A stretch of DNA of 64,000 nt, taken from contig NZ_JAKRKC020000001.1 of assembly GCF_022664455.2 (NCBI RefSeq), positions 4,159,001 through 4,223,000 of the forward strand, read 5' to 3'. This document shows positions 1 to 39,650 of the stretch, piece by piece. Origin of the DNA: Actinomadura luzonensis (GTDB lineage Bacteria > Actinomycetota > Actinomycetes > Streptosporangiales > Streptosporangiaceae). Position 1 is the stretch's first letter. Each line of letters opens with the position of its first letter. The position numbers were made by a program, and so were the translations under genes. Below the pieces are notes generated by a model. It saw only the letters and a list, made by a program, of their open reading frames with translations. It was not told the origin of the DNA and ran no database searches.

Positions 1-635
1 GCGGGGCGTCGGCGCGGCGATCGTCGCCGACGGGCGGGTGTACCGGGGGGCGCGGGGCGGCGCGGGCGAGTTCGGCCACCTGCCGGTGGACCCGGAGGCC
101 GCCGTGCGGGTGCGGGGCGCGGGGCTGCCTGGAGGCGCTGGTGGGGTCGGCGGGCCTGCTGCGCCCGGCCCGCGCCAGGTACGCCGGCGGCGGAGGCCCG
201 GGTGACGCCGCGACGCCGGCCGAGGCGGGCAGCGCCGCGACGCCGGCCGAGGCGGGCAGCGCCGCGACGGCGGCCGAGCTGGGCAGGGCCGCGGCGGCCG
301 GCGACGCCGTGGCGCGCGAGGTGTTCGCCGAGGCCGGGACGGTCCTGGGCCGGGCCACGGCGGGGCTGGTCAACGTGGTGGACCCCGAGGTCGTGGTGGT
401 GCTCGGCGAGGGCACGGCCGACTGGCCGCTGTGGCGCACCGGCTTCGAGCCGGCGCTGCGGGCGGCGCTCTACCCCGGCCGGCGGGACATCCCCGTCGAG
501 GTGGAGAGCTGGGACGACACGAGCTGGGCGCAGGGCGCGGCGGCGCTGGTGCTGGCCACCCCGTTCGACGCGGCCGGCGCGGCCGGGGAGCAGGGCCGCC
601 TGGTCCGCGCCCGCCTGATCGGAGCCGCCTCGTGA
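1..635 (+). pseudogene. ROK-family sugar kinase/regulator, 3' part, frameshifted
   Basis: The 5' end lies outside the window. From base 2 the second frame reads a ROK segment with GVGAAIV and [11 protein letters not shown]. The conserved zinc/ROK signature [10 protein letters not shown] follows in the third frame from about base 105. One extra base near 101-107 therefore breaks the frame, and the rest runs to a TGA at 633-635. ROK proteins are sugar kinases or sugar-responsive repressors; the position just before sugar ABC genes fits either role. Three copies of a 9-residue repeat (AATPAEAGS-like) sit just after the Cys motif and are not typical of the family. The stop overlaps the next start (GTGA). 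The break may be real or a sequencing error, since codon bias stays strong on both sides. Confidence 0.75.
207..287 (+). repeat. 3 x 27-bp in-frame tandem repeat inside ROK gene
   Basis: Two identical 27-base units (207-233 and 234-260) and a diverged third (261-287) encode an Ala/Glu/Pro-rich 9-residue repeat. The unit length is a multiple of three, so copy number can change without shifting frame. Confidence 0.85.
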
Positions 636-1609
636 AGCTGCACTTACCGCCGGCCGCCCGCCGCTCCCCCGCGAAGGACCAGGCCGGGAGCGGGGCGCGG
701 CAGGCCGTCCCCGAGGCCGGGCCCCGCCCGCCGCGCCGCGGGCGCTGGCGTCACGCCGCCACGGTCGCGGTGTTCCTGCTGCCTAGCCTGGTCCCGCTCA
801 CCCTCTACACGCTGATCCCGATGGTCGGCTCGTTCTGGACCAGCCTGCACGAGTGGGACCTCATCACCGACATGCGCTGGGTCGGCCTCGGCAACTACGC
901 CGACCTGCTCGGCGACGCCGACACCCGGGCCGCGTTCCTGCACACCCTGTACTTCATCGCCGGCTACCTGCCGCTGGTCTACCTCGGCGGCCTCGGCCTG
1001 GCGGTGCTGCTCGACCGGAGGATGCCGGCCCGCGCCCTGCTGCGCGGCGTCTACTTCCTGCCGGTGATCACGAGCTGGGTGGTGGTCGCGCTGATGTGGA
1101 AGTGGCTGCTGAACCCGGCCAGCGGCATCGTCAACTGGGCGCTCGGCCTGGTGGGCGTGCACGGGCCCGGCTGGTGGACCGACCCCGGCTGGGCGATGCC
1201 GTCGATCATCCTCGCCTCGGCGTGGAAGGACCTCGGCTTCGTGATGATCATCCTGCTGGCCGGGCTGCAGGCGATCCCCCGCGAGTACCAGGAGGCCGCC
1301 ATGGTGGACGGCGCGACCGCCTGGCGCAGGTTCCGGCACATCACGCTGCCCCTGCTGTCGCCCTCGACGTTCTTCGTGGTGGTGATCTCGCTGATCAACG
1401 GCTTCCAGGTGTTCGACCAGGTCAAGATCATGACGGGTGGCGGGCCGGGCGGCGCGACGCAGGTCGTGGTGTCGCAGATCTACGACCTCACCTTCCGCTA
1501 CGGCCGGGCGGGCGCGGCCTCGGCGCTGTCCTGGCTGCTGTTCGCGCTGGTGCTGCTGGTGACCGTCGTGCAGATCCGGGGCCAGAGGCGGTGGGTGACC
1601 TATGGGTAA
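632..1609 (+). CDS. Sugar ABC transporter permease (MalF/UgpA type)
   Basis: Inner-membrane permease of 325 residues for a binding-protein-dependent sugar importer. After a basic, proline-rich N-terminus the first membrane helix starts near residue 45 (VAVFLLPSLVPLTLYTLIP); about six helices are visible. The EAA loop that docks the ATPase lies near residues 217-240 (EYQEAAMVDGA). The GTG start at 632 overlaps the upstream TGA and begins where the family's N-terminus is expected. The 3' end overlaps the second permease by eight bases, so the two are translationally coupled. It should pair with the next permease and with the lipoprotein at 2421. No ATPase gene is nearby. Confidence 0.93.
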   Translation: MKLHLPPAARRSPAKDQAGSGARQAVPEAGPRPPRRGRWRHAATVAVFLLPSLVPLTLYTLIPMVGSFWTSLHEWDLITDMRWVGLGNYADLLGDADTRAAFLHTLYFIAGYLPLVYLGGLGLAVLLDRRMPARALLRGVYFLPVITSWVVVALMWKWLLNPASGIVNWALGLVGVHGPGWWTDPGWAMPSIILASAWKDLGFVMIILLAGLQAIPREYQEAAMVDGATAWRRFRHITLPLLSPSTFFVVVISLINGFQVFDQVKIMTGGGPGGATQVVVSQIYDLTFRYGRAGAASALSWLLFALVLLVTVVQIRGQRRWVTYG

Positions 1610-2408
1610 GGCGCTCCGCTACCTGCTGGTGGGCCTCGGCGCGCTGGCGATGTTGTTCCCGTTCGGCTGGGCGGTGATCACGTCGGTGACGCCGGGCGAC
1701 GCCGTGCTGGCCGTGCCGCCCGACTTCACGCCCGAGGGCGCGAGCCTGGACGCCTACGGCCGGCTGCTGGAGACGCTGCCGTTCTGGCGGATCGTGCTGA
1801 ACAGCGCCTGGGTCGGCGCCGCCTCGACCGCGCTGCAGCTGCTCACCAGCGCGATGGCGGCCTACGCCTTCGCGCGGCTGCCGTTCCCCGGCCGGGGCGC
1901 GCTGTTCGCGGTGTACCTCACGACGCTGATGATGCCGCTGCCGGTGCTGGTCGTGCCGCTGTTCCTGGAGATGCGCATGTTCGGCCTGGTCGACACGTAC
2001 TTCGCGCTGCTCGCGCCGACGATCGCCTCGGCGTTCGGGGTGTTCCTGCTGCGGCAGGCGGTCAACCAGGTGCCCCGGGAGTTCGACGAGGCGGCGGTGC
2101 TGGACGGCGCCGGGCACTTCCGCATCTTCCTGTTCGTGGTGCTGCCGCTGATCCGCCCGGCGCTCGCCACGTTCGCGATCTTCGGGTTCATGGCGAGCTG
2201 GAACAGCTACCTGTGGCCGCTGATCATCATCAAGTCGCCCGAGTTCATGACCCTGCCGCTGGGCCTGGCGACCCTGCACGGGCAGTTCACCACGCAGTGG
2301 GACGTGGTGATGGCGGGCTCGGTCGTCAGCGTCGTCCCGATCCTCGTCCTCTACGTCTTCGCGCAGAAGCACGTCATCGCCAGCGTCGCGCAGAGCGGGC
2401 TCAAGTAA
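1602..2408 (+). CDS. Sugar ABC transporter permease (MalG/UgpE type)
   Basis: Second inner-membrane permease, 268 residues, with six predicted helices and the EAA motif near residues 160-180 (EFDEAAVLDGAG). The ATG start lies inside the end of the first permease gene, the usual MalF-MalG arrangement. Only 12 bases separate it from the binding-protein gene. The two permeases should form a heterodimeric channel and use an ATPase encoded elsewhere, as is common for actinobacterial CUT1 systems that share MsiK (known for the group; inferred here). Confidence 0.93.
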   Translation: MGKALRYLLVGLGALAMLFPFGWAVITSVTPGDAVLAVPPDFTPEGASLDAYGRLLETLPFWRIVLNSAWVGAASTALQLLTSAMAAYAFARLPFPGRGALFAVYLTTLMMPLPVLVVPLFLEMRMFGLVDTYFALLAPTIASAFGVFLLRQAVNQVPREFDEAAVLDGAGHFRIFLFVVLPLIRPALATFAIFGFMASWNSYLWPLIIIKSPEFMTLPLGLATLHGQFTTQWDVVMAGSVVSVVPILVLYVFAQKHVIASVAQSGLK

Positions 2409-2420
2409 AGGAAACCCCCC

Positions 2421-3683
2421 ATGTCACGACACATCAAGATCGCGGCGGCCGTCGCCGCGGCCGCGCTGCTCGCCTCCGCCTGCTCGCAGGGCTCGGCCAC
2501 CCGGGGCACCACCGGCGAGGGCGGCAAGGTGACGCTGCGGTACTTCACCTTCTCGGCCGCGCCCGACCACCTCAAGGACCTCGACGCCATCGAGAAGGCC
2601 TTCGAGAAGGACAACCCGAACGTGGACGTGGTGGTCGAGACCGCCCCCTTCGAGCAGTACTTCACCAAGCTGCAGACCAGCATCGCCGGCGGCACCGCGC
2701 CCGACACCTTCGAGCTGAACTACGAGAACTTCGTCACCTACGCCGGCGCCGGCTCGCTGCTCGACCTCGGGACGGTGGCGGGCGACGGCGGCACCTCGGT
2801 CTACGCCCCCGCCTCGCTCGACGCCTTCAAGCACGACGGCAGGCAGTACGCGCTGCCCGCCTCGTTCTCCACGGTCGTGCTCTTCTACAACAAGGACCTG
2901 TTCGACAAGGCGGGCGTGGCCCCGCCCACCGCCTCCTGGACGTGGGCCGACGAGCAGGCCGCCGCCGAGAAGCTGACCGACCGCAAGAAGGGCGTCTTCG
3001 GCGACTTCCAGCCGGTGCAGTTCTTCGAGTTCTACAAGACGCTCAAGCAGGCGGGCGGCACGTTCCTGGCCGCCGACGGCAGGAGGACCGCCTTCGACAG
3101 CCCGCAGGGCGTCAAGGCCGCGACCTGGCTGGTGTCGAAGGTCGGCAGGACCATGCCGACCGAGGCCGAGATCGGCGGCACCGCCGACTACGACACGAAC
3201 CTGTTCAAGTCCGGCAAGCTCGCGATGTGGCACAACGGCATCTGGCAGTTCGCGGGGCTGAAGGACGTGCCGTTCCAGTGGGACGTCGTCGTCGAGCCGG
3301 GTGACACGGCCAAGGCCAGCGCCGTCTTCCACAACGCGGTGGCCGCCTCCGCGACCACCAAGCACGCCAAGGAGGCCTACGCCTGGGCCCGCTACCTGTC
3401 GTCCTCGGACGTCGCGGCGACCACCCGCATCCGCTCGTCGTGGGAGCTGCCCCCCGTCTCCGACCAGCAGGTGCTGGCCGGCTACCTCAAGGACCCGAAG
3501 CCCGCCAACCGGCAGGCGGTCTTCGACTCGCTCAAGTCCATCGCGCTGCCGCCGGTGATCAAGCGGCAGCAGGAGATGCAGGACGCGGTGACCAAGCAGC
3601 TCAGCGAGGCCGCGTCCGGGCGCAAGTCCGTGGCGGAGGCGCTGAAGGCCGCCGCCGCCGAGGTCGACGCGCTGCTCGGCTGA
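2421..3683 (+). CDS. Extracellular sugar-binding lipoprotein (SBP family 1)
   Basis: A 420-residue substrate-binding protein. It has a lysine-containing signal peptide and a lipobox LLASAC with Cys21 as the predicted lipid anchor, so it sits outside the membrane. The mature part has SBP_bac_1 features: a first lobe with the LRYFTFSAAPDHLKDL region, the hinge-region ALPASFSTVVLFYNKDLFDKAG, and aromatic residues typical of sugar clefts (WTWADE, MWHNGIWQF). An AAAGGAAA ribosome-binding site precedes the ATG. Its ligand is probably an alpha-gluco-oligosaccharide, judged from the five downstream hydrolase/transferase genes rather than from the protein itself. Confidence 0.92.
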   Translation: MSRHIKIAAAVAAAALLASACSQGSATRGTTGEGGKVTLRYFTFSAAPDHLKDLDAIEKAFEKDNPNVDVVVETAPFEQYFTKLQTSIAGGTAPDTFELNYENFVTYAGAGSLLDLGTVAGDGGTSVYAPASLDAFKHDGRQYALPASFSTVVLFYNKDLFDKAGVAPPTASWTWADEQAAAEKLTDRKKGVFGDFQPVQFFEFYKTLKQAGGTFLAADGRRTAFDSPQGVKAATWLVSKVGRTMPTEAEIGGTADYDTNLFKSGKLAMWHNGIWQFAGLKDVPFQWDVVVEPGDTAKASAVFHNAVAASATTKHAKEAYAWARYLSSSDVAATTRIRSSWELPPVSDQQVLAGYLKDPKPANRQAVFDSLKSIALPPVIKRQQEMQDAVTKQLSEAASGRKSVAEALKAAAAEVDALLG

Positions 3684-3718
3684 GCCGTCCCCGTACCTAC
3701 GCAGTTCAGGAGAGATCG

Positions 3719-4804
3719 TTGTCCCTCGTCGCGCACAGCCTCGACGTGATCAGGAGCCTCCAGGCGCCGTCGGGCGCCTACCCGGCCTCGCCCACCTTCT
3801 CGGCCTACCGCGGCTACTCGTGGCTGCGCGACGGCGCGTTCATCGCCGAGGGCGTGAGCCGGCACGGCGACACGGCCGGCGCGGACGCCTTCCACGCCTG
3901 GTGCGCGCGGGTGGTCGGGGACCGCGCGGGCCAGGTGGACGGGCTGGTGGCGCGTGCGGCGCGCGGCGAGGAGGTGCCGGTGGCCGAGATGTTGCCGACC
4001 CGGTTCACGCTGGACGGCGTGGCCGGCGCCGACCCCTGGTGGGACTTCCAGCTCGACGGGTACGGCACGTGGCTGTGGGCGCTGCGGGAGCACGCCGCCC
4101 GGCACGGCGGGGCGCCGGCGGGCGTCGAGAAGGGCGTGCGGGCGGCGGCCCGCTACCTGGCCGCGTTCTGGCACCTGCCCTGCTACGACTGGTGGGAGGA
4201 GCACGTCGAGCACCGGCACGTGGCGACGCTCGGCGCGGTGCACGCGGGGCTGCGGGCCGCGGTCGCGCTCGGCGTGCTGACGGCGACCGAGGAGGCCGCG
4301 GCGGAGCGGGCGGTGGCGGGCATCGCCGCGCTGGTGGCCGCCGAGGGCGTCGCGCCGGCCGGGCACCTGCGCAAGTGGCTCGGCGGCGACGCGGTGGACG
4401 CGAGCCTGCTGGCCTGCGTGGAGCCGTTCGGGCTGTACCCGGCCGGGCATCCGGTCGGGCGGGCGACGGTGGCCGAGGTGGAGCGGCGGCTCGCCCGGGA
4501 CGGCGGCGTGTACCGCTACCTCGCCGACACCTTCTACGGCGGCGGCCGGTGGCCGCTGCTGTCGGGCTTCCTCGGCTGGAACCACGCCAGGGCCGGGCGG
4601 CGGGCCGAGGCGGAGCGGTACCTGGCCTGGATCGCGGCCCAGGCCACCCCGGAGGGGGACCTGCCCGAGCAGGTGGGCGGGCCGCTGCTGGCGCCGGAGC
4701 GGCGGCAGGAGTGGCTGGAGCGGTGGGGGCCGGTGGCGACGCCGCTGCTGTGGTCGCACGGCATGTACCTGATCCTCGCGGGCGAGCTGGGGGTGGCGGC
4801 GTGA
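3719..4804 (+). CDS. GH15-like glucoamylase-family enzyme
   Basis: Predicted cytoplasmic (alpha/alpha)6-barrel enzyme of 361 residues, without a signal peptide. The early motif GYSWLRDGAFIAEG is characteristic of GH15-like proteins. CYDWWEEHVEHRH near residues 155-165 holds the likely catalytic acid Glu. GDLPEQ near 314-318 matches the catalytic base region of the family. Start chosen is TTG at 3719, with AGGAGA seven bases before it; reading further upstream would overlap the binding-protein gene. GH15 enzymes release glucose from alpha-linked oligosaccharides; a linkage other than alpha-1,4 is plausible beside GH31 enzymes. Its stop overlaps the next GTG, giving translational coupling. Confidence 0.85.
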   Translation: MSLVAHSLDVIRSLQAPSGAYPASPTFSAYRGYSWLRDGAFIAEGVSRHGDTAGADAFHAWCARVVGDRAGQVDGLVARAARGEEVPVAEMLPTRFTLDGVAGADPWWDFQLDGYGTWLWALREHAARHGGAPAGVEKGVRAAARYLAAFWHLPCYDWWEEHVEHRHVATLGAVHAGLRAAVALGVLTATEEAAAERAVAGIAALVAAEGVAPAGHLRKWLGGDAVDASLLACVEPFGLYPAGHPVGRATVAEVERRLARDGGVYRYLADTFYGGGRWPLLSGFLGWNHARAGRRAEAERYLAWIAAQATPEGDLPEQVGGPLLAPERRQEWLERWGPVATPLLWSHGMYLILAGELGVAA

Positions 4805-7050
4805 TCCGGCACCGGCCGTACGGATCGGGGCACCCGTACGCGGACAGCGAGGACCAGCGCGTCCCGGCCCGGCCGCTGGACGGCGAGAGCGCGGAGCTGC
4901 GGGTGCGGGCCGCCGCTTCGGTCACCGCCGTGGTGTGCGAATGGGCCGTGGACGGCTCCACTCCCGTGGAGCTGCCCTTGACCAGGGGGTACGCCCCGAC
5001 CGGCGCGGGCACGGCCGGGACGGCGGGGGCAGGCGGGGCGGTGGACGGCGGGCATCTGGCGGCCGCGCAGGCGCGGGCCGCCCGGGCGGTCGCGGGCACG
5101 TGGACCGTGCGCACGCCCGCCCTGCGTGCCGGCCACCGTTACGCCTACCGCTTCCGCGCCGCCACGGCGACGGGGGCGACCCGCTCGACCAGGTGGTTCG
5201 AGGTCACGGCCGCCACCTGGTCGGACGCGGGCGGCAAGCTGGAGGTCACCGGCGCGGACCGGATCGTCCCGGGCAGCGTGCGGTGGCTGGCCGACGGCGA
5301 CGGCCCGCTGCGGGCCCGCTTCGAGCTGGCGCTCGCGCCGGACGAGCACGTCGTCGGGTTCGGCGAGCGGTTCGACGCGGTGGACCAGCGGGGGCGGGCC
5401 CTCGACGCGGTGGTCTTCGAGCAGTACAAGGCGCAGGGCCGGCACGGCCGCACGTACCTGCCGATGCCGTACGCGCTGGTCACGGGCGGCCCGGCGAGCT
5501 GGGGCTGGCACCTGCGGACCTCGCGCCGCACCTGGTACGACGTCGGCGCGGCCCGCCCCGGCCGGATCGCCGTCGAGGCCGAGGTGGGCCGGGACGGCGT
5601 GCTGGAGGTGCGTTTCCTCGGCGGCCCCCGCCCCGCCGACGTGCTGCGCGCCTTCCTCGACGACACCGGCCGCCCGGCCGAGCTGCCGCCGTGGGTGTTC
5701 CGGCTGTGGGCCAGCGGCAACGAGTGGAACACCCAGGAGCGCGTCCTGGCCGAGCTGGACCGGCACCGCGAGCACGACGTCCCGGTCGGCGTGCTGGTCA
5801 TCGAGGCGTGGAGCGACGAGAGCACGTTCACGGCGTTCCGCGGCGCCCGGTACGAGCCGTCGGAGGAGCCGCACCGGCTGGCCGACTACACCTTCCCCGC
5901 CGACGGCCCGTGGCCGGACCCGAAGGGCCTGGTGGACGAGCTGCACCGCAGGGACGTCAAGGTGCTGCTGTGGCAGATCCCGCTGCAGAAGACCCGCCCC
6001 CACCCCCGCCACCAGGCCGCCGTGGACGCCCGGCAGCTCGTCGAGCGCGGCTACGGCGTGCGCGAGGCGGACGGCCGGCCGTACCGCAACCGGGGCTGGT
6101 GGTTCCCGCTGGCGCTCATGCCCGACCTGTCCAGCCAGGAGGTGCGCGACTGGTGGACGGCCAAGCGCCGCTACCTGGTGGAGGAGGTCGGGATCGACGG
6201 GTTCAAGACCGACGGCGGCGAGCACGCCTGGGGCCACGACCTGCGCTACGCCGACGGCCGCGACGGCTCGGCGGGCAACGCGCTGTTCCCGGTGCACTAC
6301 GCCCGCGCCTTCGGCGACCTGCTGCGCGCCTGCGGCAAGGCGCCGGTGACGTTCAGCCGGGCCGGGTTCGCCGGCTCGCAGCCGCACGGCGCGTTCTGGG
6401 CCGGGGACGAGGACTCCACCTGGGCGGCGTTCCGCGCCTCGATCAGGGCGGGGATCACCGCCTCCGCGTGCGGGATCGTCTACTGGGGCTGGGACCTGGC
6501 CGGCTTCTCCGGGCCGGTGCCGGACGCCGAGCTCTATCTGCGGGCGGCGGGCGCGGCCACGTTCATGCCGATCATGCAGTACCACTCGGAGTTCAACCAC
6601 CACCGCACGCCCGTCAGGGACCGCACGCCGTGGAACGTCGCCGCGCAGACCGGCGACGAGCGGGTCGTCCCGGTGTTCGGGCGGCTGGCCCGGCTGCGGG
6701 AGCGGCTGGTGCCGTACCTGGCCGGGCAGGCGCGGGCCGCCGTCGCGGGCGGCGCGCCGCTGATGCGCGGCCTGTTCTTCGACCATCCGGACGACCCGGC
6801 GATCTGGCGGCACCCGCTGCAGTTCAAGCTGGGCGACGCGCTGCTGGTGGTGCCCGTCACCGAGCCCGGCGTGCCGGAGGTGCCCGCCTACCTGCCCGAA
6901 GGCGCCTGGGTGGACGTCTGGACCGGCCGCGGCCTGACCGGCGGCCGGACGGTGACGCTGCCCGCGCCCCTGGACCGCCCGCCCGTGCTGTGCGCGGCGG
7001 AGCACTGGTCCCGTCTCGCCCCCGTCTTCTCCGAAGGAGCGCCACCATGA
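4801..7050 (+). CDS. GH31 alpha-glucosidase/xylosidase-type enzyme, cytoplasmic
   Basis: A 749-residue glycoside hydrolase family 31 enzyme without a signal peptide. The N-terminal beta-sandwich carries VVGFGERFDAVDQRG, then the (beta/alpha)8 barrel. The nucleophile is Asp471 in GFKTDGGE and the acid/base is Asp536 in WAGDEDSTW, both in expected contexts. The GTG start overlaps the previous TGA. The KTDGGE form resembles alpha-xylosidase and isomaltosyl/glucosyl-transferase branches rather than classical maltase-type members. The likely job is cutting imported oligosaccharides from the non-reducing end, working with the GH15-like enzyme. Hydrolase versus transferase cannot be told from sequence alone. 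Confidence 0.9.
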   Translation: MIRHRPYGSGHPYADSEDQRVPARPLDGESAELRVRAAASVTAVVCEWAVDGSTPVELPLTRGYAPTGAGTAGTAGAGGAVDGGHLAAAQARAARAVAGTWTVRTPALRAGHRYAYRFRAATATGATRSTRWFEVTAATWSDAGGKLEVTGADRIVPGSVRWLADGDGPLRARFELALAPDEHVVGFGERFDAVDQRGRALDAVVFEQYKAQGRHGRTYLPMPYALVTGGPASWGWHLRTSRRTWYDVGAARPGRIAVEAEVGRDGVLEVRFLGGPRPADVLRAFLDDTGRPAELPPWVFRLWASGNEWNTQERVLAELDRHREHDVPVGVLVIEAWSDESTFTAFRGARYEPSEEPHRLADYTFPADGPWPDPKGLVDELHRRDVKVLLWQIPLQKTRPHPRHQAAVDARQLVERGYGVREADGRPYRNRGWWFPLALMPDLSSQEVRDWWTAKRRYLVEEVGIDGFKTDGGEHAWGHDLRYADGRDGSAGNALFPVHYARAFGDLLRACGKAPVTFSRAGFAGSQPHGAFWAGDEDSTWAAFRASIRAGITASACGIVYWGWDLAGFSGPVPDAELYLRAAGAATFMPIMQYHSEFNHHRTPVRDRTPWNVAAQTGDERVVPVFGRLARLRERLVPYLAGQARAAVAGGAPLMRGLFFDHPDDPAIWRHPLQFKLGDALLVVPVTEPGVPEVPAYLPEGAWVDVWTGRGLTGGRTVTLPAPLDRPPVLCAAEHWSRLAPVFSEGAPP

Positions 7051-10000
7051 GCCGGTCACGCTCGGCCGACGCCGTCTCCGCGTCCTCGCTGCCCGCCGAC
7101 CTCGCCGACGCGCTGGACGGCGTGTACCACAACCCGACCGGCGTCGACGACCTCTACTCCACCGAGCCGACCGAGCGGTCGCCGCGCGACCCGATGGCCG
7201 GCGACGTGGTGCGGATCGACGCCACGACGTGGCCGGTCCGGCCCGGCCAGCGCGTGTGGGTGGCGTGGGCGCGGAACGGCGAGGAGCAGCCCCCGGCCGG
7301 GGCGGCCTGGGACCACAACAGCGGCGGCAACAGCTACTGGCGGGCCGAGCTCGGCCCGTTCGCCCGCGGCGACCGCGTCTCCTACACGGTGGAGGCCGAG
7401 CTGAACGGCGGCGGGCGGCGGAGCTCCGGCCCGTTCGCGTTCACCGTGACCTCGTGGAGCACCGCGACGGACGTGACCGGGTTCGCCGACAACGGCACGT
7501 CGGTGGACGTCACGACCGGCGACAGCGCGGGCGGCTCGTTCACGCCGCGGATCCGCTTCGCCTTCCCCGCGCCGGGCCGTCTCACCACGCAGATCTCGCC
7601 GAGCGGGGCGGGCCTGACCGTGTCGGGGCTGCCCGGCTACAAGGTGGCGGAGTCGCCGGCCGCGCTGACGATCTCCACCGGCTCGCTGGTGCTGGAGATC
7701 CAGAAGTCGCCGTACCGGCTGTCGCTCTACCGGGGCGACGGCACGACGCTCGTCACCCGCCACTACGACCCGGCCGGGTTCCGCAACGTCGGCTGGGCGA
7801 GCGACGGCGCCACCACGGTCACCCGGATCGAGGACCACTTCCTGTCGCCGCCCGGCGAGCGCTTCGAGGGCTTCGGCGAGCGCTACGACCGTCTCGACCA
7901 GCGCGGCACCGACGTGCACACCTACGTCTACAACCAGTACCGCGACCAGGGCGCGACCCGCCGCACCTACCTGAGCGTGCCGTTCTTCCTGAACTCGGCC
8001 GGGTACGGCGTGCACGTCGAGGGCACCCGCTACACGGTCTTCAACCTGAACACGCACCTGCCCGACCTGGCCGGCTTCACCGCCGACACCGGCGGCGCGC
8101 GGGACTCCACGCTCGTCTACCACGTCTTCACCGGCACCCCGGCCGAGATCCTGGACGGCTTCACCGAGCTGACCGGCCGGCCGCAGCCGCCGCCGCGCTG
8201 GGCGTTCGGGCCGTGGATGTCGGCCAACGAGTGGAACACGCAGGCCGAGGTGGCCCGCGAGCTGGCCAACGTCGAGGCGTACCGGATCCCGCACACCGCG
8301 ATGGTGCTGGAGCAGTGGAGCGACGAGGCCACGTTCTACCTGTGGCACGGGGCCGCGTACGAGCCGGGGCCCGGCGGCGGGAAACCGGCGTACGCGGACC
8401 TGACGTTCCCGCCGGGCGCCGCGTGGCAGGACCCGAAGGCGATGGTGGCCGACGCCCACGCGCGGGGCGTCCGGGTGGTGCTGTGGCAGATCCCGGTGTT
8501 CAAGGAGCACTTCGCCGACAATCCGGCGGCCGCGCCGCAGCAGCACCTCAACGACAAGGCGTACGCGCTGGCGCAGGGGTACGTCGTGCGCGACGCCGCC
8601 GGCGGCCCGTACCGGATCCCGTCCGGCCAGTGGTTCGGCGACAGCATGGTGCCGGACTTCACCAGCCCGGCGGCGACCGCGTGGTGGATGAGCAAGCGCG
8701 ACTACCTGATGGACGAGATCGGGATCGACGGGTTCAAGACCGACGGCAGCGAGGCCGTCTTCGGCCGGGGCGTGCGCTTCGCCGACGGCCGCCGGGGCGA
8801 CGAGATGCACAACGCCTACCCCAACAGCTACACCGGCGCCTACGACGCCTACGTCAAGGACCGGCGGCCGGACGGCGCGATCTTCAGCCGGGCGGGCACG
8901 ACGGGCGCGCAGACCAGGTCGATCTTCTGGGCGGGCGACCAGAACTCCAGCTTCGCCGCCTTCCGCGAGGCGGTCCGGGCGCAGCTCAGCGCCGGGCAGT
9001 CGGGCGTGCCGTTCACGGCGTGGGACCTGGCGGGCTTCACCGGCTCCTTCCCGGGCGCGGAGCTGTACCTGCGGGCGGCGGCGCAGGCCACGTTCTCGCC
9101 GATCATGCAGTACCACTCGGAGAAGTCCGGCCCGGCGGTGTCCGAGGCCCGCACGCCGTGGAACGTGCAGGCGCGCACCGGTGACACGCGCGTGGTGCCG
9201 GTCTTCCGCGCCTTCGCCAACGTGCGGATGAACCTGATCCCGTACCTGTGCGCCGAGGCGGCGGCGAGCGCCGCGACGGGCGCGCCGATGATGCGGGCCA
9301 TGAGCTTCGCCTTCCCCGGCGACGCCGAGGCGGCGGCGCTGGACCAGCAGTACCTGTTCGGCTCGCAGCTCCTGGTGGCGCCGGTGACCACGGAGGGCGC
9401 GACGACCAGGGACGTCCGCCTGCCCGCCGGCGAGTGGACGGACCTGTGGAACGGCGGCCGCTTCACCGGCCCCGGCGTCAAGACCTACGGCGCGGGCCTG
9501 GAGACGATCCCGGTCTACGCCCGGCCGGGCGCGATCGTCCCGCTCGACCTGGGCGCCGGCTACCGGCTCGGCGGCGAGATCGGCAACGACGTGGACGCCT
9601 ACGAGAACCTGACCTTCCGCGTCTACCCGGCGGGCGCCTCCTCCTACGCCTGCCTGGAGGGCACCGTCAGCGCGGCCGCGGACTGGGCCGCGCACACGGT
9701 GACCGTCACCGTGCCGCCGCTGACCGTCACGGCCACGCTGCAGGTGCACAGCACCCGGCCGGCGTCGGTGCCGGGCGTCAGCCCGCGGGCGAGCCTGGCG
9801 GAGCTGGCGGCCGCGCCCGAGGGCTGGTGGTGGGAGCCGGCGGGGCAGCTCACGCACGTCAAGCTGGCGAGCGCCGGCGCCGCCCGCACCGTCACGCTGA
9901 CCGGCGTGGACAAGGCGGCCTACGAGGCCGAGTTCGCCGACGGCACCGGCACCTCGGTCGGCGCCGACCATCCCGGGCACACCGGCACCGGGTTCGCCGA

Positions 10001-10292
10001 CGGCTTCGCCACCCCCGGCGACGCGGTGACCTTCCACGTCAACGCGGACGCGGCGGGCGAGCACCTGCTGCGTTTCCGCTACTCCACCACGGTCGCCGCC
10101 ACCCGCACCGTCGTCGTGGACGGCGTCACCGCCGGCCGTCTCGCCCTGCCCGCGCTGCCCGGCTGGGACGCCTGGGACACGGCGACGCTCGCCGTGCCGC
10201 TCGCGGCGGGCCCGCACGCGGTGACGCTCGCCTACGGCGCCGCCGACACCGGCGGCGTCAACCTCGACCACCTGGTGGTGGCCCGGCCATGA
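7047..10292 (+). CDS. GH31 enzyme with C-terminal CBM35/CBM6-like domain
   Basis: A 1081-residue GH31 protein that starts at an ATG overlapping the previous stop (ATGA). There is no signal peptide. Residues 1-140 form an extra N-terminal beta-domain; the GH31 sandwich shows FEGFGERYDRLDQRG. The barrel has nucleophile Asp566 (GFKTDGSE) and acid/base Asp631 (WAGDQNSSF). From about residue 960 a jelly-roll domain begins (YEAEFADGTG, later HLLRFRYST and NLDHLVV), typical of CBM35/CBM6 sugar-binding modules. A binding module on a seemingly cytoplasmic protein is odd: either a non-classical export route exists or the module contacts soluble oligosaccharide. It is a paralogue of its two neighbours. 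Confidence 0.88.
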   Translation: MSRSRSADAVSASSLPADLADALDGVYHNPTGVDDLYSTEPTERSPRDPMAGDVVRIDATTWPVRPGQRVWVAWARNGEEQPPAGAAWDHNSGGNSYWRAELGPFARGDRVSYTVEAELNGGGRRSSGPFAFTVTSWSTATDVTGFADNGTSVDVTTGDSAGGSFTPRIRFAFPAPGRLTTQISPSGAGLTVSGLPGYKVAESPAALTISTGSLVLEIQKSPYRLSLYRGDGTTLVTRHYDPAGFRNVGWASDGATTVTRIEDHFLSPPGERFEGFGERYDRLDQRGTDVHTYVYNQYRDQGATRRTYLSVPFFLNSAGYGVHVEGTRYTVFNLNTHLPDLAGFTADTGGARDSTLVYHVFTGTPAEILDGFTELTGRPQPPPRWAFGPWMSANEWNTQAEVARELANVEAYRIPHTAMVLEQWSDEATFYLWHGAAYEPGPGGGKPAYADLTFPPGAAWQDPKAMVADAHARGVRVVLWQIPVFKEHFADNPAAAPQQHLNDKAYALAQGYVVRDAAGGPYRIPSGQWFGDSMVPDFTSPAATAWWMSKRDYLMDEIGIDGFKTDGSEAVFGRGVRFADGRRGDEMHNAYPNSYTGAYDAYVKDRRPDGAIFSRAGTTGAQTRSIFWAGDQNSSFAAFREAVRAQLSAGQSGVPFTAWDLAGFTGSFPGAELYLRAAAQATFSPIMQYHSEKSGPAVSEARTPWNVQARTGDTRVVPVFRAFANVRMNLIPYLCAEAAASAATGAPMMRAMSFAFPGDAEAAALDQQYLFGSQLLVAPVTTEGATTRDVRLPAGEWTDLWNGGRFTGPGVKTYGAGLETIPVYARPGAIVPLDLGAGYRLGGEIGNDVDAYENLTFRVYPAGASSYACLEGTVSAAADWAAHTVTVTVPPLTVTATLQVHSTRPASVPGVSPRASLAELAAAPEGWWWEPAGQLTHVKLASAGAARTVTLTGVDKAAYEAEFADGTGTSVGADHPGHTGTGFADGFATPGDAVTFHVNADAAGEHLLRFRYSTTVAATRTVVVDGVTAGRLALPALPGWDAWDTATLAVPLAAGPHAVTLAYGAADTGGVNLDHLVVARP

Positions 10293-13126
10293 GACGATCG
10301 CTGCTGCTGCTGGCCGCGCTGCTGGTGCCGCTGGTCCCGCTGGCGGTGGCGTCGTCGGTGGAGGCGGCGGTGCCCCGGGTGCAGTTCACCAGCGGGCCGG
10401 CGTACCTGGTGGTGGAGTTCCTGGACGACGACCTGGTGCACTTCGAGCTGGCCGAGGGCGCGCCGCCCGGCACCGGCTCGCCGATCCGCACCACGCCGCA
10501 GGTCGCCAAGTCCGACTACCCGGGCCCGTCGAGCTTCACCCAGCAGGGGAACACGCTCACCACGGCGGCCATGAAGGTCGAGGTCGCGCCGGGCACGCTG
10601 TGCGTGACGGTGTCCGACCCGGCCCGGCAGCTGTACCAGGCGTGCCCGCGCGACCTCGGGCAGGCGTGGAAGGGCCTGTCGATCACCAAGGGCGCGATGC
10701 GGAACGCGTACGGGCTGGGCGAGCAGTTCTTCAAGGGCGGCAGCGCCGACGGCGACTGGGTGGGCCGCGTCCGCACGCCGGGCGGCCCGTACGGCAACGC
10801 GATGGCGTTCGACACCGACAACGGCCCGGTCGGCAACGCCCAGATCCCCGTCCTGTTCGCGACGGGCCCGGACCGCCTCGGCTACGGGCTGTTCCTCGAC
10901 CAGGTCTACAAGCAGGAGTGGGACCTGACCGGCGACCCGTGGACCGTCGGCACGTGGGGCGACCAGCTCAGGTGGTACACGATGACCGGCCACGGCCTGC
11001 CCGACCTGCGCTCCGACTACATGGAGCTGACCGGCCGGCCGCCGGTTCCGCCGAAGAAGGCGTTCGGCATGTGGGTGTCGGAGTTCGGCTACGACGGCTG
11101 GGGCGAGATCGACGACCGGCTCGCCGGGCTGCGCGCGGCGGCGTTCCCGGTGGACGGCTTCGTACTGGACCTGGAGTGGTTCGGCGGCGTCACGGCGGGC
11201 TCCGACACCACCCGCATGGGCACCCTCGCCTGGGACACCCGGGCCTTCCCCGACCCGCCCGGGCACATCGCCGCCTACCGCGACCGCGAGGGCCTCGGCC
11301 TGATCACCATCGAGGAGTCCTACGTCGGCCGCGGCCTGCCCGAGCACGCCGACCTGGCGGCGCGCGGCTACCTGGTGAGGTCGGGCTGCGGGACGTGCGC
11401 GCCCGCCTACCTCACCGGCAACGACTGGTGGGGCCGCGGCGGCATGATCGACTGGACGCAGGACGCCGCCGGCGACTACTGGCACGCGCTCAAGCGGCAG
11501 CCGCTCGCCGACGCCGGCATCATGGGCCACTGGCTGGACCTCGGCGAGCCGGAGATGTACGACCCCGGCGACTGGACCGCCGGCCTGCTGCCCGGCAAGC
11601 ACGCCCACGCCGACTACCACAACCTCTACAACCTCAAGTGGGCCGAGAGCGTGGCCCGCCGCTACGCCTCCGGGCAGCGGCGGCCGTTCCTGCTGGCCCG
11701 CTCGGCGGCGGCGGGCATGCAGCGCTTCGGCGTGGCCATGTGGTCGGCCGACATCGGCTCCAAGCTGACCGCGCTCGCCCAGCAGCAGAACGCCCAGATG
11801 CAGCTGTCGATGTCCGGCATCGACTACTACGGCTCCGACATCGGCGGCTTCCGCCGCGAGATGCTGAACTCCGACCTGGACGAGCTGTACACGCAGTGGT
11901 TCGCCGACGGGGCCTGGTTCGAGGTGCCGGTGCGCCCGCACACCGAGAACCTGTGCAACTGCCGGCACACCGCCCCCGACGAGATCGGGCACGTGCCCAG
12001 CAACCTCGCCAACCTGCGGCAGCGTTACGAGCTGACGCCCTACTACTACTCGCTGGCGCACCGCGCCCACCGGTACGGGGAGCCGGTCGTGCCGCCGCTC
12101 GCGTACTACTACCAGGACGACCCGAACGTGGCCGAGATGGGCGGCGAGAAGCTGGTCGGCCGCGACCTGCTGGTGGGCGTCGTGGCGGGCAGGGGCGAGC
12201 GCGAGCGGGACGTGTACCTGCCGGCCGGCACCTGGTACGACTACGCGACGGGCGAGCGGCTGACCAGCACCGGCCAGTGGTTCATGGACCGGCCGCTGTG
12301 GGTGGACGGCGTCTTCCGGCTGCCGGCCTTCGCCCGCGCCGGCGCGATCCTGCCGAAGATGCACGTGGACGGCCGGACGATGAACGTGCTCGGCCGGCGC
12401 ACCGACGGCAGCACCAGGGACGAGCTGGTGGCCCGCGTCCACCCGGACGCCGCCGCGACGAGCTTCACCCTCTACGAGGACGACGGCGCCACCACCGCCT
12501 ACCGCACCGGCGAGGTCCGCACCACCCGGATCGGCCAGCAGCGCACCGGCGACACGGCGACCGTCACCGTGGACCCGGCCGAGGGCTCCTACGCGGGCGC
12601 CCCGTCCGCCCGGCCGGTCGTCGTCGAGCTGGTCACGGACACGCAGGCCGCGTCCGTCACGCTGAACGGCGCCGCCCTGCCGCGCCTGCCCGGCAGGGCC
12701 GCCTTCGACGCGGCCGCGAGCGGCTGGTACAACGCGGGCGGCAACCTCGTGGTCGCCAAGTCGGCGAGCACGCCGGTCGGCACGGCGCTGACGTTCGCGT
12801 TCACGCTCGGGCAGGCGCCGGTGTCGGCCACGTTCCGCTGCGCGAACGGCGTCACCGAGCCGGGCCAGTCGGTCTACGCCGTCGGCGGCGCGCCGCAGCT
12901 CGGGTCGTGGTCGGTGGCCGGGGCGGTGAAGCTGTCGCCGACCGCGTACCCGGCCTGGACCGGCACCGTCACCGGCCTGCCGCCGGAGACGAGCGTGGAG
13001 TGGAAGTGCGTCAAGCGGCGCGAGCAGGGCTTCCCCGACACCGCCGACCAGTGGCAGCCGGGCGCGAACAGCGTGCTCACCACTCCGGCGAGCGGCGACG
13101 CCGGCACCACGGCCGGGTCGTTCTAG
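10289..13126 (+). CDS. Secreted GH31 enzyme with C-terminal CBM20-like starch-binding domain
   Basis: A 945-residue exported GH31 enzyme: a signal peptide with RRSLLLLAALLVPLVPLAVA and cleavage near residue 25, then the sandwich and barrel. The nucleophile is Asp417 in WLDLGEPE and the acid/base Asp488 in MWSADIGS, a different subfamily from the two cytoplasmic GH31 proteins. Residues from about 841 (SATFRCANGV, QLGSWSVAGAVKLS, VEWKCVKR) match CBM20 starch-binding folds. The ATG overlaps the previous stop. As the only secreted enzyme of the operon it probably attacks or rebuilds starch-type glucan outside the cell to make the imported substrate; glucosyltransferase activity is possible but unproven. 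Confidence 0.9.
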   Translation: MRRSLLLLAALLVPLVPLAVASSVEAAVPRVQFTSGPAYLVVEFLDDDLVHFELAEGAPPGTGSPIRTTPQVAKSDYPGPSSFTQQGNTLTTAAMKVEVAPGTLCVTVSDPARQLYQACPRDLGQAWKGLSITKGAMRNAYGLGEQFFKGGSADGDWVGRVRTPGGPYGNAMAFDTDNGPVGNAQIPVLFATGPDRLGYGLFLDQVYKQEWDLTGDPWTVGTWGDQLRWYTMTGHGLPDLRSDYMELTGRPPVPPKKAFGMWVSEFGYDGWGEIDDRLAGLRAAAFPVDGFVLDLEWFGGVTAGSDTTRMGTLAWDTRAFPDPPGHIAAYRDREGLGLITIEESYVGRGLPEHADLAARGYLVRSGCGTCAPAYLTGNDWWGRGGMIDWTQDAAGDYWHALKRQPLADAGIMGHWLDLGEPEMYDPGDWTAGLLPGKHAHADYHNLYNLKWAESVARRYASGQRRPFLLARSAAAGMQRFGVAMWSADIGSKLTALAQQQNAQMQLSMSGIDYYGSDIGGFRREMLNSDLDELYTQWFADGAWFEVPVRPHTENLCNCRHTAPDEIGHVPSNLANLRQRYELTPYYYSLAHRAHRYGEPVVPPLAYYYQDDPNVAEMGGEKLVGRDLLVGVVAGRGERERDVYLPAGTWYDYATGERLTSTGQWFMDRPLWVDGVFRLPAFARAGAILPKMHVDGRTMNVLGRRTDGSTRDELVARVHPDAAATSFTLYEDDGATTAYRTGEVRTTRIGQQRTGDTATVTVDPAEGSYAGAPSARPVVVELVTDTQAASVTLNGAALPRLPGRAAFDAAASGWYNAGGNLVVAKSASTPVGTALTFAFTLGQAPVSATFRCANGVTEPGQSVYAVGGAPQLGSWSVAGAVKLSPTAYPAWTGTVTGLPPETSVEWKCVKRREQGFPDTADQWQPGANSVLTTPASGDAGTTAGSF

Positions 13127-38402: not shown

Positions 38403-39650
38403 TCAATCCTGCCGCACAGGACGACGGGCAGAGCGAGGGGCGGGGCGAGGGACAGCATGGCGGGCGGGGAACGCGTGCCGCCGGGCCGCGACCGCCACCG
38501 CCAGGGCGCCGGCCAGCAGCGGCAGCGCGGCCCACGGCAGGGCCGCCGCGCCGGCGGATTCCAGCACCAGGCCCCCGGCCAGCGACCCCCCGGCGATGCC
38601 CGCGTTGTAGACGGTGGTCTGCATGGAGGTGGCCACGTCGGCGTCGGCCGGTCCGGCGGCTCGCACCAGCGCCGTCTGCAGCAGCGTCGGCACTCCCCCG
38701 AAGGCCGCCCCCCACAGTGCCGCGCCGATCAGAGTCAGGGGTAGGGACGCGGCAAGGGACGCGGCGCCGCCGAGCAGGGGCATGACCGCTGCCATCACGG
38801 CCAGCACCGCCAGCAGCGCGGCCCGCGGCCACCGGTCGATCACCGCGCCGGTGACCCAGATCCCGGCGACCGTCCCGGCCCCGAACACCAGCAGCACGAC
38901 GCCCGTCGCCGCCGTCCCGGACAGCGCGGCCAGCGGCGCCAGGTACGTGTACACGGCCTGGTGCCCGACCAGCACCGCCGCGGTGACGCCGAGCACGGTC
39001 CGGACGCCGGGCCGCGCCGCCACCCGGCGCAGCGGCGTCCGCTCCCCCGCCGCCTCGCCGGGAAGGTCCGGCACCTTCCACCGCGCGAACGCCGCCAGCG
39101 CGCCCGCCAGGCAGGCGAGCGCGGCGAAGGCGGCCCGCCAGCCGAGCGCCCCGGCCAGCGCCGCGCCCGCCGGGATGCCGACGCACAACGCGACCGTGAT
39201 GCCGGCCGAGACGATCGCGATGGCCCGGCCGCGCCGTTCCTCGGGCACCAGGCGGGCGGCGTACCCGACGAGCATGGCCCACAGCAGCCCGCCCATGACG
39301 CCGGCCAGCAGCCGCGCGGCGAAGGTGACGGCGTACCAGGACGACAGCGCGGTCACGGCGTTGAGCAGCGCGAAGCCGCCGAGCGCGGTGACCAGGACGG
39401 GCCGCCGCCGCAGCCCGCGCACCAGGGCGGTCAGCGGGATCGCGGCCAGGGTGGACGCCGCGGCGTAGCCGGTGACGAGGAACCCGGCGCGGCTCTCGGG
39501 CACGCCCAGGGCCGCGGCGAGGCCGGGCAGCAGCCCGGCGGGCAGCAGCTCGGTCATGACGGCGGTGAACGCGGCGGCGAACAGGGCCGTCAGCGCCGCC
39601 CACGGCATCCGCACGGCGGGCCCCGGCGGGGCGAGGGTGGTCTGGGACAT
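38403..39650 (-). CDS. MFS efflux transporter (AraJ/DHA1 type)
   Basis: A 415-residue transporter with 12 helices. Motif A is seen as GLRRRPVLVTALGG between helices 2 and 3. The first helix, MTELLPAGLLPGLAAALGV, is characteristic of the sugar-efflux/chloramphenicol-resistance branch. VLVGHQAVYTYLAPL marks the start of the second half. The gene is divergent from a MerR regulator with a clear operator between them, so expression is probably induced by the exported compound. Confidence 0.93.
   Translation of the reverse strand: MSQTTLAPPGPAVRMPWAALTALFAAAFTAVMTELLPAGLLPGLAAALGVPESRAGFLVTGYAAASTLAAIPLTALVRGLRRRPVLVTALGGFALLNAVTALSSWYAVTFAARLLAGVMGGLLWAMLVGYAARLVPEERRGRAIAIVSAGITVALCVGIPAGAALAGALGWRAAFAALACLAGALAAFARWKVPDLPGEAAGERTPLRRVAARPGVRTVLGVTAAVLVGHQAVYTYLAPLAALSGTAATGVVLLVFGAGTVAGIWVTGAVIDRWPRAALLAVLAVMAAVMPLLGGAASLAASLPLTLIGAALWGAAFGGVPTLLQTALVRAAGPADADVATSMQTTVYNAGIAGGSLAGGLVLESAGAAALPWAALPLLAGALAVAVAARRHAFPARHAVPRPAPRSARRPVRQD

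Follow-up and report, generated by a model that had tools for sequence, protein, structure and literature searches.

Which sugar is served by the carbohydrate operon at positions 632-13126 of the DNA analyzed here, and does the strain carrying it still make this sugar or only use it? The window, i.e., the whole stretch of 64,000 nucleotides, comes from Actinomadura luzonensis (hereafter the window strain), and its operon encodes CUT1 transport proteins, one GH15 enzyme and three GH31 enzymes, labelled A, B and C. Judged from sequence, this operon very probably corresponds to the known actinobacterial pathway of cycloalternan (cyclobis-(1->6)-alpha-nigerosyl, CNN). As for the second question, the most convincing reading, which we regard as probable, is a CNN pathway whose synthesis half is being lost in the window strain, leading to a consumer. 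Seven open reading frames (ORFs), all on the + strand, follow the end of a ROK regulator head to tail, most of them with overlapping starts and stops and the others nearly so:

1-635, + strand: C-terminal part of a ROK-family regulator (Pfam ROK), reading frame broken near 95-100
632-1609, + strand: CUT1 ABC permease of MalF type (Pfam BPD_transp_1), position kept in relatives
1602-2408, + strand: CUT1 ABC permease of MalG type (ORF), 79-94% identical in the complete operons of relatives
2421-3683, + strand: lipoprotein-type solute-binding protein (SBP) of the cycloalternan-binding (Lmo0181) type, best solved match 5f7v (Lmo0181)
3725-4804, + strand: predicted GH15 isomaltose glucohydrolase (Pfam GH15, match to 5z3a), with a TTG start behind AGGAG
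4801-7050, + strand: GH31-A, predicted intracellular cycloalternan-degrading enzyme (CADE), a 1,3-alpha-isomaltosidase (matches to 5x3i and 5f7s, Pfam AIMA-like_N, no signal peptide)
7047-10292, + strand: GH31-B, homologue of the cycloalternan-forming enzyme (CAFE) that has lost its signal peptide (match to Lmo2446, Pfam Lmo2446-like_N and CBM_35)
7047-7118, + strand: eroded signal-peptide region of GH31-B (DNA alignment with relatives, codon list)
10289-13126, + strand: GH31-C, secreted GH31 with DUF5110 and C-terminal CBM20 (Pfam), presumed 6-alpha-glucosyltransferase

The ORFs and their Pfam domains bear out the composition proposed in the initial annotation, namely a GH15 and three distinct GH31 enzymes with one secreted, starch-binding member, the latter being illustrated by the signal peptide and CBM20 of GH31-C. 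The three nucleophile contexts also stand as they had been quoted, each accompanied by an acid/base Asp: KTDGGE (D471) with D536 in GH31-A, KTDGSE (D566) with D631 in GH31-B, and WLDLGEPE (D417) with D488 in GH31-C. Likewise, the coupling to CUT1 transport is sound, the permeases and the SBP lying in the same operon in a conserved order. The complete operon with identical gene order was present in 10 of the 151 genomes of our family sample, i.e., in nine others besides the window strain, and this order is therefore not due to chance. MalK-type proteins are encoded outside the operon, which contains no ATPase gene.

The resemblance to cycloalternan systems noticed earlier was confirmed, as the SBP, GH15, GH31-A and GH31-B all match solved proteins of this pathway. 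Over its whole length, GH31-A matched 5x3i (E=7.8e-278), which we take to be the 1,3-alpha-isomaltosidase of Kribbella flavida, and 5f7s (E=2e-255); it has the AIMA-like N domain and both catalytic Asp of the intracellular cycloalternan-specific GH31 enzymes. The sole solved match of the GH15 was the isomaltose glucohydrolase 5z3a (E=4e-126, residues 2-357 aligned), and the protein contains a presumed acid, E158, a presumed base, E315 (following the catalytic Glu numbering that we assume), and a conserved A338. This Ala corresponds to Ala358 of KfIG (PMC12446779), and the full-length match to KfIG, the Glu pair and the Ala of inverting enzymes are the features of an isomaltose glucohydrolase (EC 3.2.1.205). 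The entry 5f7s is grouped with TpCADE (5I0G), the Trueperella enzyme that degrades cycloalternan (PMC9061262). Among solved structures, the SBP was by far closest to 5f7v, i.e., Lmo0181 (E=1.7e-98, the runner-up being at E=2.9e-25), and this type of SBP stands together with CUT1 permeases, as in the pathway. The structure of Lmo0181 was solved with cycloalternan (PMC7676653), and the Listeria monocytogenes pathway comprises Lmo0181 as SBP and Lmo2446 as CAFE (Light et al., 2016, cited in PMC7676653). Taken strictly, the uptake and degradation half agrees with the cycloalternan pathway family in every sequence feature compared.

In K. flavida, CNN is catabolized by a GH31 1,3-alpha-isomaltosidase and a GH15 isomaltose glucohydrolase, 5z3a (Tagami et al., 2016, cited in PMC12446779). 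GH15 and GH31-A resemble the Kribbella enzymes over their full length, and the same genes, with SBP and permeases, occur in the Kribbella loci L105 and L109; there, however, the two halves form divergent operons instead of one, and the CAFE has a signal peptide, unlike that of the window. These comparisons qualify the earlier statement that the GH15 and the non-secreted CBM35 protein match none of the familiar systems. The GH15 is of the Kribbella flavida type and had already been assigned to the pathway, and a C-terminal CBM35 is also found on Listeria Lmo2446. The absence of secretion, on the other hand, was correctly noticed and is the one real departure.

The two remaining enzymes form the synthesis pair. 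GH31-B aligned end to end with Lmo2446 (4kmq, 5f7u; residues 20-1079, 1044 bits), the CBM35 included, and has the domains expected of a CAFE, i.e., the Lmo2446-like N-terminal domain, the GH31 barrel and the CBM35. Searches of the window strain's genome gave six GH31 matches and one CAFE match, and no second CAFE-like GH31. GH31-C begins with a clear signal peptide, MRRSLLLLAALLVPLVPLAVASSVEA, and its orthologue adjoins CAFE in actinobacterial loci with 63-82% identity; in the Arthrobacter loci L112, L113 and L115, the same pair occurs with a GH31-C 63% identical. Because it is secreted, bears a CBM20 and is constantly found beside CAFE, GH31-C is most likely a 6-alpha-glucosyltransferase. No close relative of GH31-C was found among solved structures, the best match being 6jr6 (E=1e-54), followed by 4b9y, an oligosaccharide 4-alpha-glucosyltransferase, and later by 5x7o (E=1e-42), presumably the GH31 6-alpha-glucosyltransferase of Paenibacillus sp. 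598K. The structure model of GH31-C, built from an alignment of 26 close relatives, was of poor quality (mean pLDDT 62.9). The Paenibacillus sp. 598K enzyme is, like GH31-C, a secreted GH31, acting on alpha-1,4-glucan (PMC13084667), although the match between 5x7o and GH31-C is weak. The outcome that the initial annotation had named as speaking against it, a clustering of all three GH31 enzymes with plain glucosidases, was not observed.

GH31-C also differs from its Bacillota counterpart. In the Bacillota, including Listeria, CAFE is followed by a GH31 of 1280-1340 residues (1320-1336 residues in the Listeria loci fetched) that is about 25% identical to GH31-C. With 945 residues, a CBM20 and this low identity, GH31-C lacks the CtsZ / Ps6TG31A-type architecture, taken here as an orthologous sequence of 1280-1340 residues with a CBM35-like C-terminus, and is not orthologous to the 6-alpha-glucosyltransferase of the Bacillota. 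No match to the GH15 was seen in the Listeria loci fetched. The ring is made by two GH31 enzymes, a 6-alpha-glucosyltransferase and CAFE (PMC9061262). In the known two-enzyme systems, such a pair stands side by side and forms the ring from starch; the window operon likewise has two adjacent GH31 enzymes. In contrast to these known pairs, the CAFE of the window has no export signal.

This departure was located at the N-terminus of the protein, MSRSRSADAVSASSLPADLADALDG, in which hydropathy revealed no hydrophobic stretch. The start codon aligns with that of relatives, but parts of the hydrophobic core have been lost by deletion or replaced by other residues. The ATG is preceded by AAGGAG and overlaps the GH31-A stop (ATGA). 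A misplaced start hiding a signal peptide was rejected because of this ribosome site, the overlap with the CADE stop and the alignment with relatives; in frame upstream of 7047, no hydrophobic stretch was found. Because its signal peptide has been lost, the window CAFE is expected to be cytoplasmic, unlike Lmo2446, which we take to be secreted. Among 78 public CAFE loci (the window being counted separately), 76 could be assessed and 74 of these had a hydrophobic signal peptide. Signal-less CAFEs thus occur in three lineages: the window strain, Bailinhaonella thermotolerans (L099) and [Actinomadura] parvosata (L119). The non-secreted CAFE is a loss in the window strain and in two other lineages, not the sign of another sugar. 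Because the synthesis half lacks this export feature, we do not claim that the window strain produces cycloalternan.

The lost region has a further peculiarity. A TTA leucine codon stands at the same place at the CAFE start, in the n-region of the signal peptide, in all 23 of the 23 signal-bearing Streptosporangiaceae loci listed (L083-L098, L117, L118, L121, L123, L126, L147 and L150); in genes with a clear start, it is codon 4. TTA is missing at this place from the three signal-less genes, Ser being encoded in the window (TCA) and in parvosata. Elsewhere, TTA is rare: the other operon genes contain a single one among 43264 codons, and CAFE past codon 20 contains 3 among 16993. In streptomycetes, TTA is the classical codon dependent on bldA. 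This pattern suggests that synthesis, but not uptake, may be under a rare-leucine-tRNA (bldA-type) developmental switch in the Streptosporangiaceae.

Evolutionary rates were then compared by a relative-rate test counting the amino-acid changes unique to the window strain and to its sister Nonomuraea PA05, with N. basaltis as outgroup. CAFE showed 169 such changes in the window strain vs. 33 in PA05 (p=1e-21), about fivefold, and GH31-C 105 vs. 43 (p=3.5e-7), about two and a half times. The difference was not significant for CADE (42 vs. 30), GH15 (19 vs. 15) and MalG (5 vs. 3), and was weak for the SBP (25 vs. 12, p=0.03). At fourfold sites of CAFE, both strains were equal (56 vs. 56). The same shift was observed in parvosata (CAFE, 98 vs. 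30; GH31-C, 67 vs. 34), where one of two comparisons also gave a slight rise for CADE, and in Bailinhaonella (CAFE, 199 vs. 33; GH31-C, 149 vs. 33), in which SBP, MalG, CADE and fourfold sites were somewhat accelerated as well. No rate shift appeared in the control pair N. solani/PA05. In all three signal-less lineages, the marked rise in protein change concerns CAFE and GH31-C, and exceeds any rise at fourfold sites. The CAFE changes lead from Lys, Asn, Ile and Thr to Arg, Asp, Gly, Val and Ala, a drift toward GC-rich codons.

The parvosata CAFE is frameshifted at residue 365 (L119, near 11092) with intact neighbour genes, which could be a sequencing error, and the GH31-C of Bailinhaonella stops short of the CBM20. 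In N. jiangxiensis (L150), the CAFE frame is broken near 10838, again between intact genes. Either errors in the assemblies or additional losses of ring synthesis would explain the breaks in parvosata and N. jiangxiensis.

The two halves are also separated across genomes. Eleven of the 151 family genomes gave a match to CADE only; the five of these loci that were inspected all keep ROK-MalFG-SBP-GH15-CADE and lack both CAFE and GH31-C there. Within Nonomuraea, CAFE was found in 24 of 55 genomes and CADE in 31, the degrading enzyme being alone in 7. A phylum-wide sample of 396 genomes added just one further CAFE match, a partial one. Beyond the family, CAFE and GH31-C were found together in Kribbella, Microbacterium, Arthrobacter and others, frequently in an operon divergent from that of the uptake genes.

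Cycloalternan is formed extracellularly from starch and is thought to reserve the sugar for those able to import it. In the working form of the pathway, secreted GH31-C, as 6-alpha-glucosyltransferase, would add alpha-1,6-linked glucose to starch fragments, and secreted GH31-B (CAFE) would transfer the isomaltosyl end of one fragment to O3 of another and close the ring. The ring would be imported by the SBP and MalFG with an ATPase encoded elsewhere, then cut into isomaltose by GH31-A, and isomaltose would be split into glucose by GH15. In the window strain, the synthesis half would be in the course of release from selection, with hardly more changes in the genes for uptake and degradation than in its sister. 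From the loss of the CAFE signal and the excess of changes in CAFE and GH31-C, with uptake and degradation genes little affected, the window strain is most likely a consumer, which would live on cycloalternan made by its neighbours.

Several observations weigh against such a loss. The window CAFE is open over 1081 codons and keeps both catalytic Asp. Of the 378 columns at which all other sequences are identical, only 10 are changed in it, far fewer than expected if some 170 changes fell randomly over some 1000 positions, and the constraint is therefore weaker, not gone. GH31-C retains its signal peptide and CBM20. Moreover, the absence of export was judged by hydropathy alone, and a consumer lifestyle needs producers nearby, which are not visible in sequence data.

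The first alternative, unlikely but the best placed, is that the signal-less CAFE works in the cytoplasm, where it would act, as an isomaltosyl transferase or hydrolase, on imported 6-glucosylated oligosaccharides that GH31-C has formed outside, GH31-A and GH15 finishing the degradation. The intact frame, the conserved catalytic residues and most invariant columns would be explained, as would the location of the changes mostly at variable positions and their shared direction in the three signal-less CAFEs, which lose Lys/Asn and gain Arg, Gly or Pro. However, GH31-C is accelerated in the same genomes, the parvosata CAFE is frameshifted, the drift to GC-rich codons is as expected under relaxed selection, and no gain is evident in making a ring only to open it inside. 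Slightly less likely is a CAFE newly selected in the cytoplasm, making rings or isomaltose units inside the cell from imported 6-glucosylated dextrins; if true, the starch pathway would be private rather than public. It is more improbable that the operon is an ordinary cycloalternan operon in full working order, its CAFE being exported non-classically or from a misjudged start. This would agree with the intact rest of the operon and the conserved enzyme core, but the start at 7047 has the threefold support given above, and the rate shift would be left unexplained.

It is very improbable that CAFE and GH31-C were replaced by horizontal transfer, with a signal-less lineage akin to Bailinhaonella as donor. 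Trees of CAFE and GH31-C do join the window with Bailinhaonella and reject a congeneric place (p-AU 0.0125), and trees of CADE and SBP reject the Bailinhaonella place (p-AU 0.0016). However, fourfold divergence from PA05 is similar across the operon (CAFE, 0.262; GH31-C, 0.264; CADE, 0.304), so that the genes look equally old, and just two identical changes are shared at otherwise invariant columns. Tree tests on single genes gave no significant result (p-AU 0.148 and 0.065). Long branches or convergence account best for the grouping with Bailinhaonella. Hardly credible either is the suggestion of the initial annotation that a new cyclic or branched sugar is made and used: with GH31-C about 25% identical to the Bacillota neighbour of CAFE, the exact product is not fixed by sequence, but full-length matches to solved proteins of the cycloalternan pathway were obtained for four components, CBM35 included, and the GH15 is the known partner in this pathway.

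Some further observations concern the surroundings of these genes. At positions 60-140 of the window, the ROK gene changes frame near 95-100: its first part (L051, 8358-9203) and the CGCGARGC motif are read in different frames. Six relatives read this gene through the break point in a single frame, and the break in the window is either a real loss or an assembly error. In Fusibacter sp. 3D3 (L139:9917-16921), CAFE is fused with the next GH31 in a single ORF of 2335 codons. In several Bacillota loci, CAFE is directly preceded by another large GH31 of CAFE-like type, with 36-42% identity to the window CAFE:

L122:5844-9671, second CAFE-like GH31
L125:4600-7947, second CAFE-like GH31
L127:4753-8163, second CAFE-like GH31
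L128:5403-9128, second CAFE-like GH31
L139:6529-9885, second CAFE-like GH31

Finally, ARAGORN called a 94-base tRNA-Gly at 39055-39148 on the - strand of the window; the sequence resembles protein-coding DNA and the call is probably false.

Within the family, genomes with the full operon, genomes with the uptake half alone and at least three intermediates, in which the ring-making enzyme has no signal peptide and evolves faster, form a natural series on the loss of a secreted public good.

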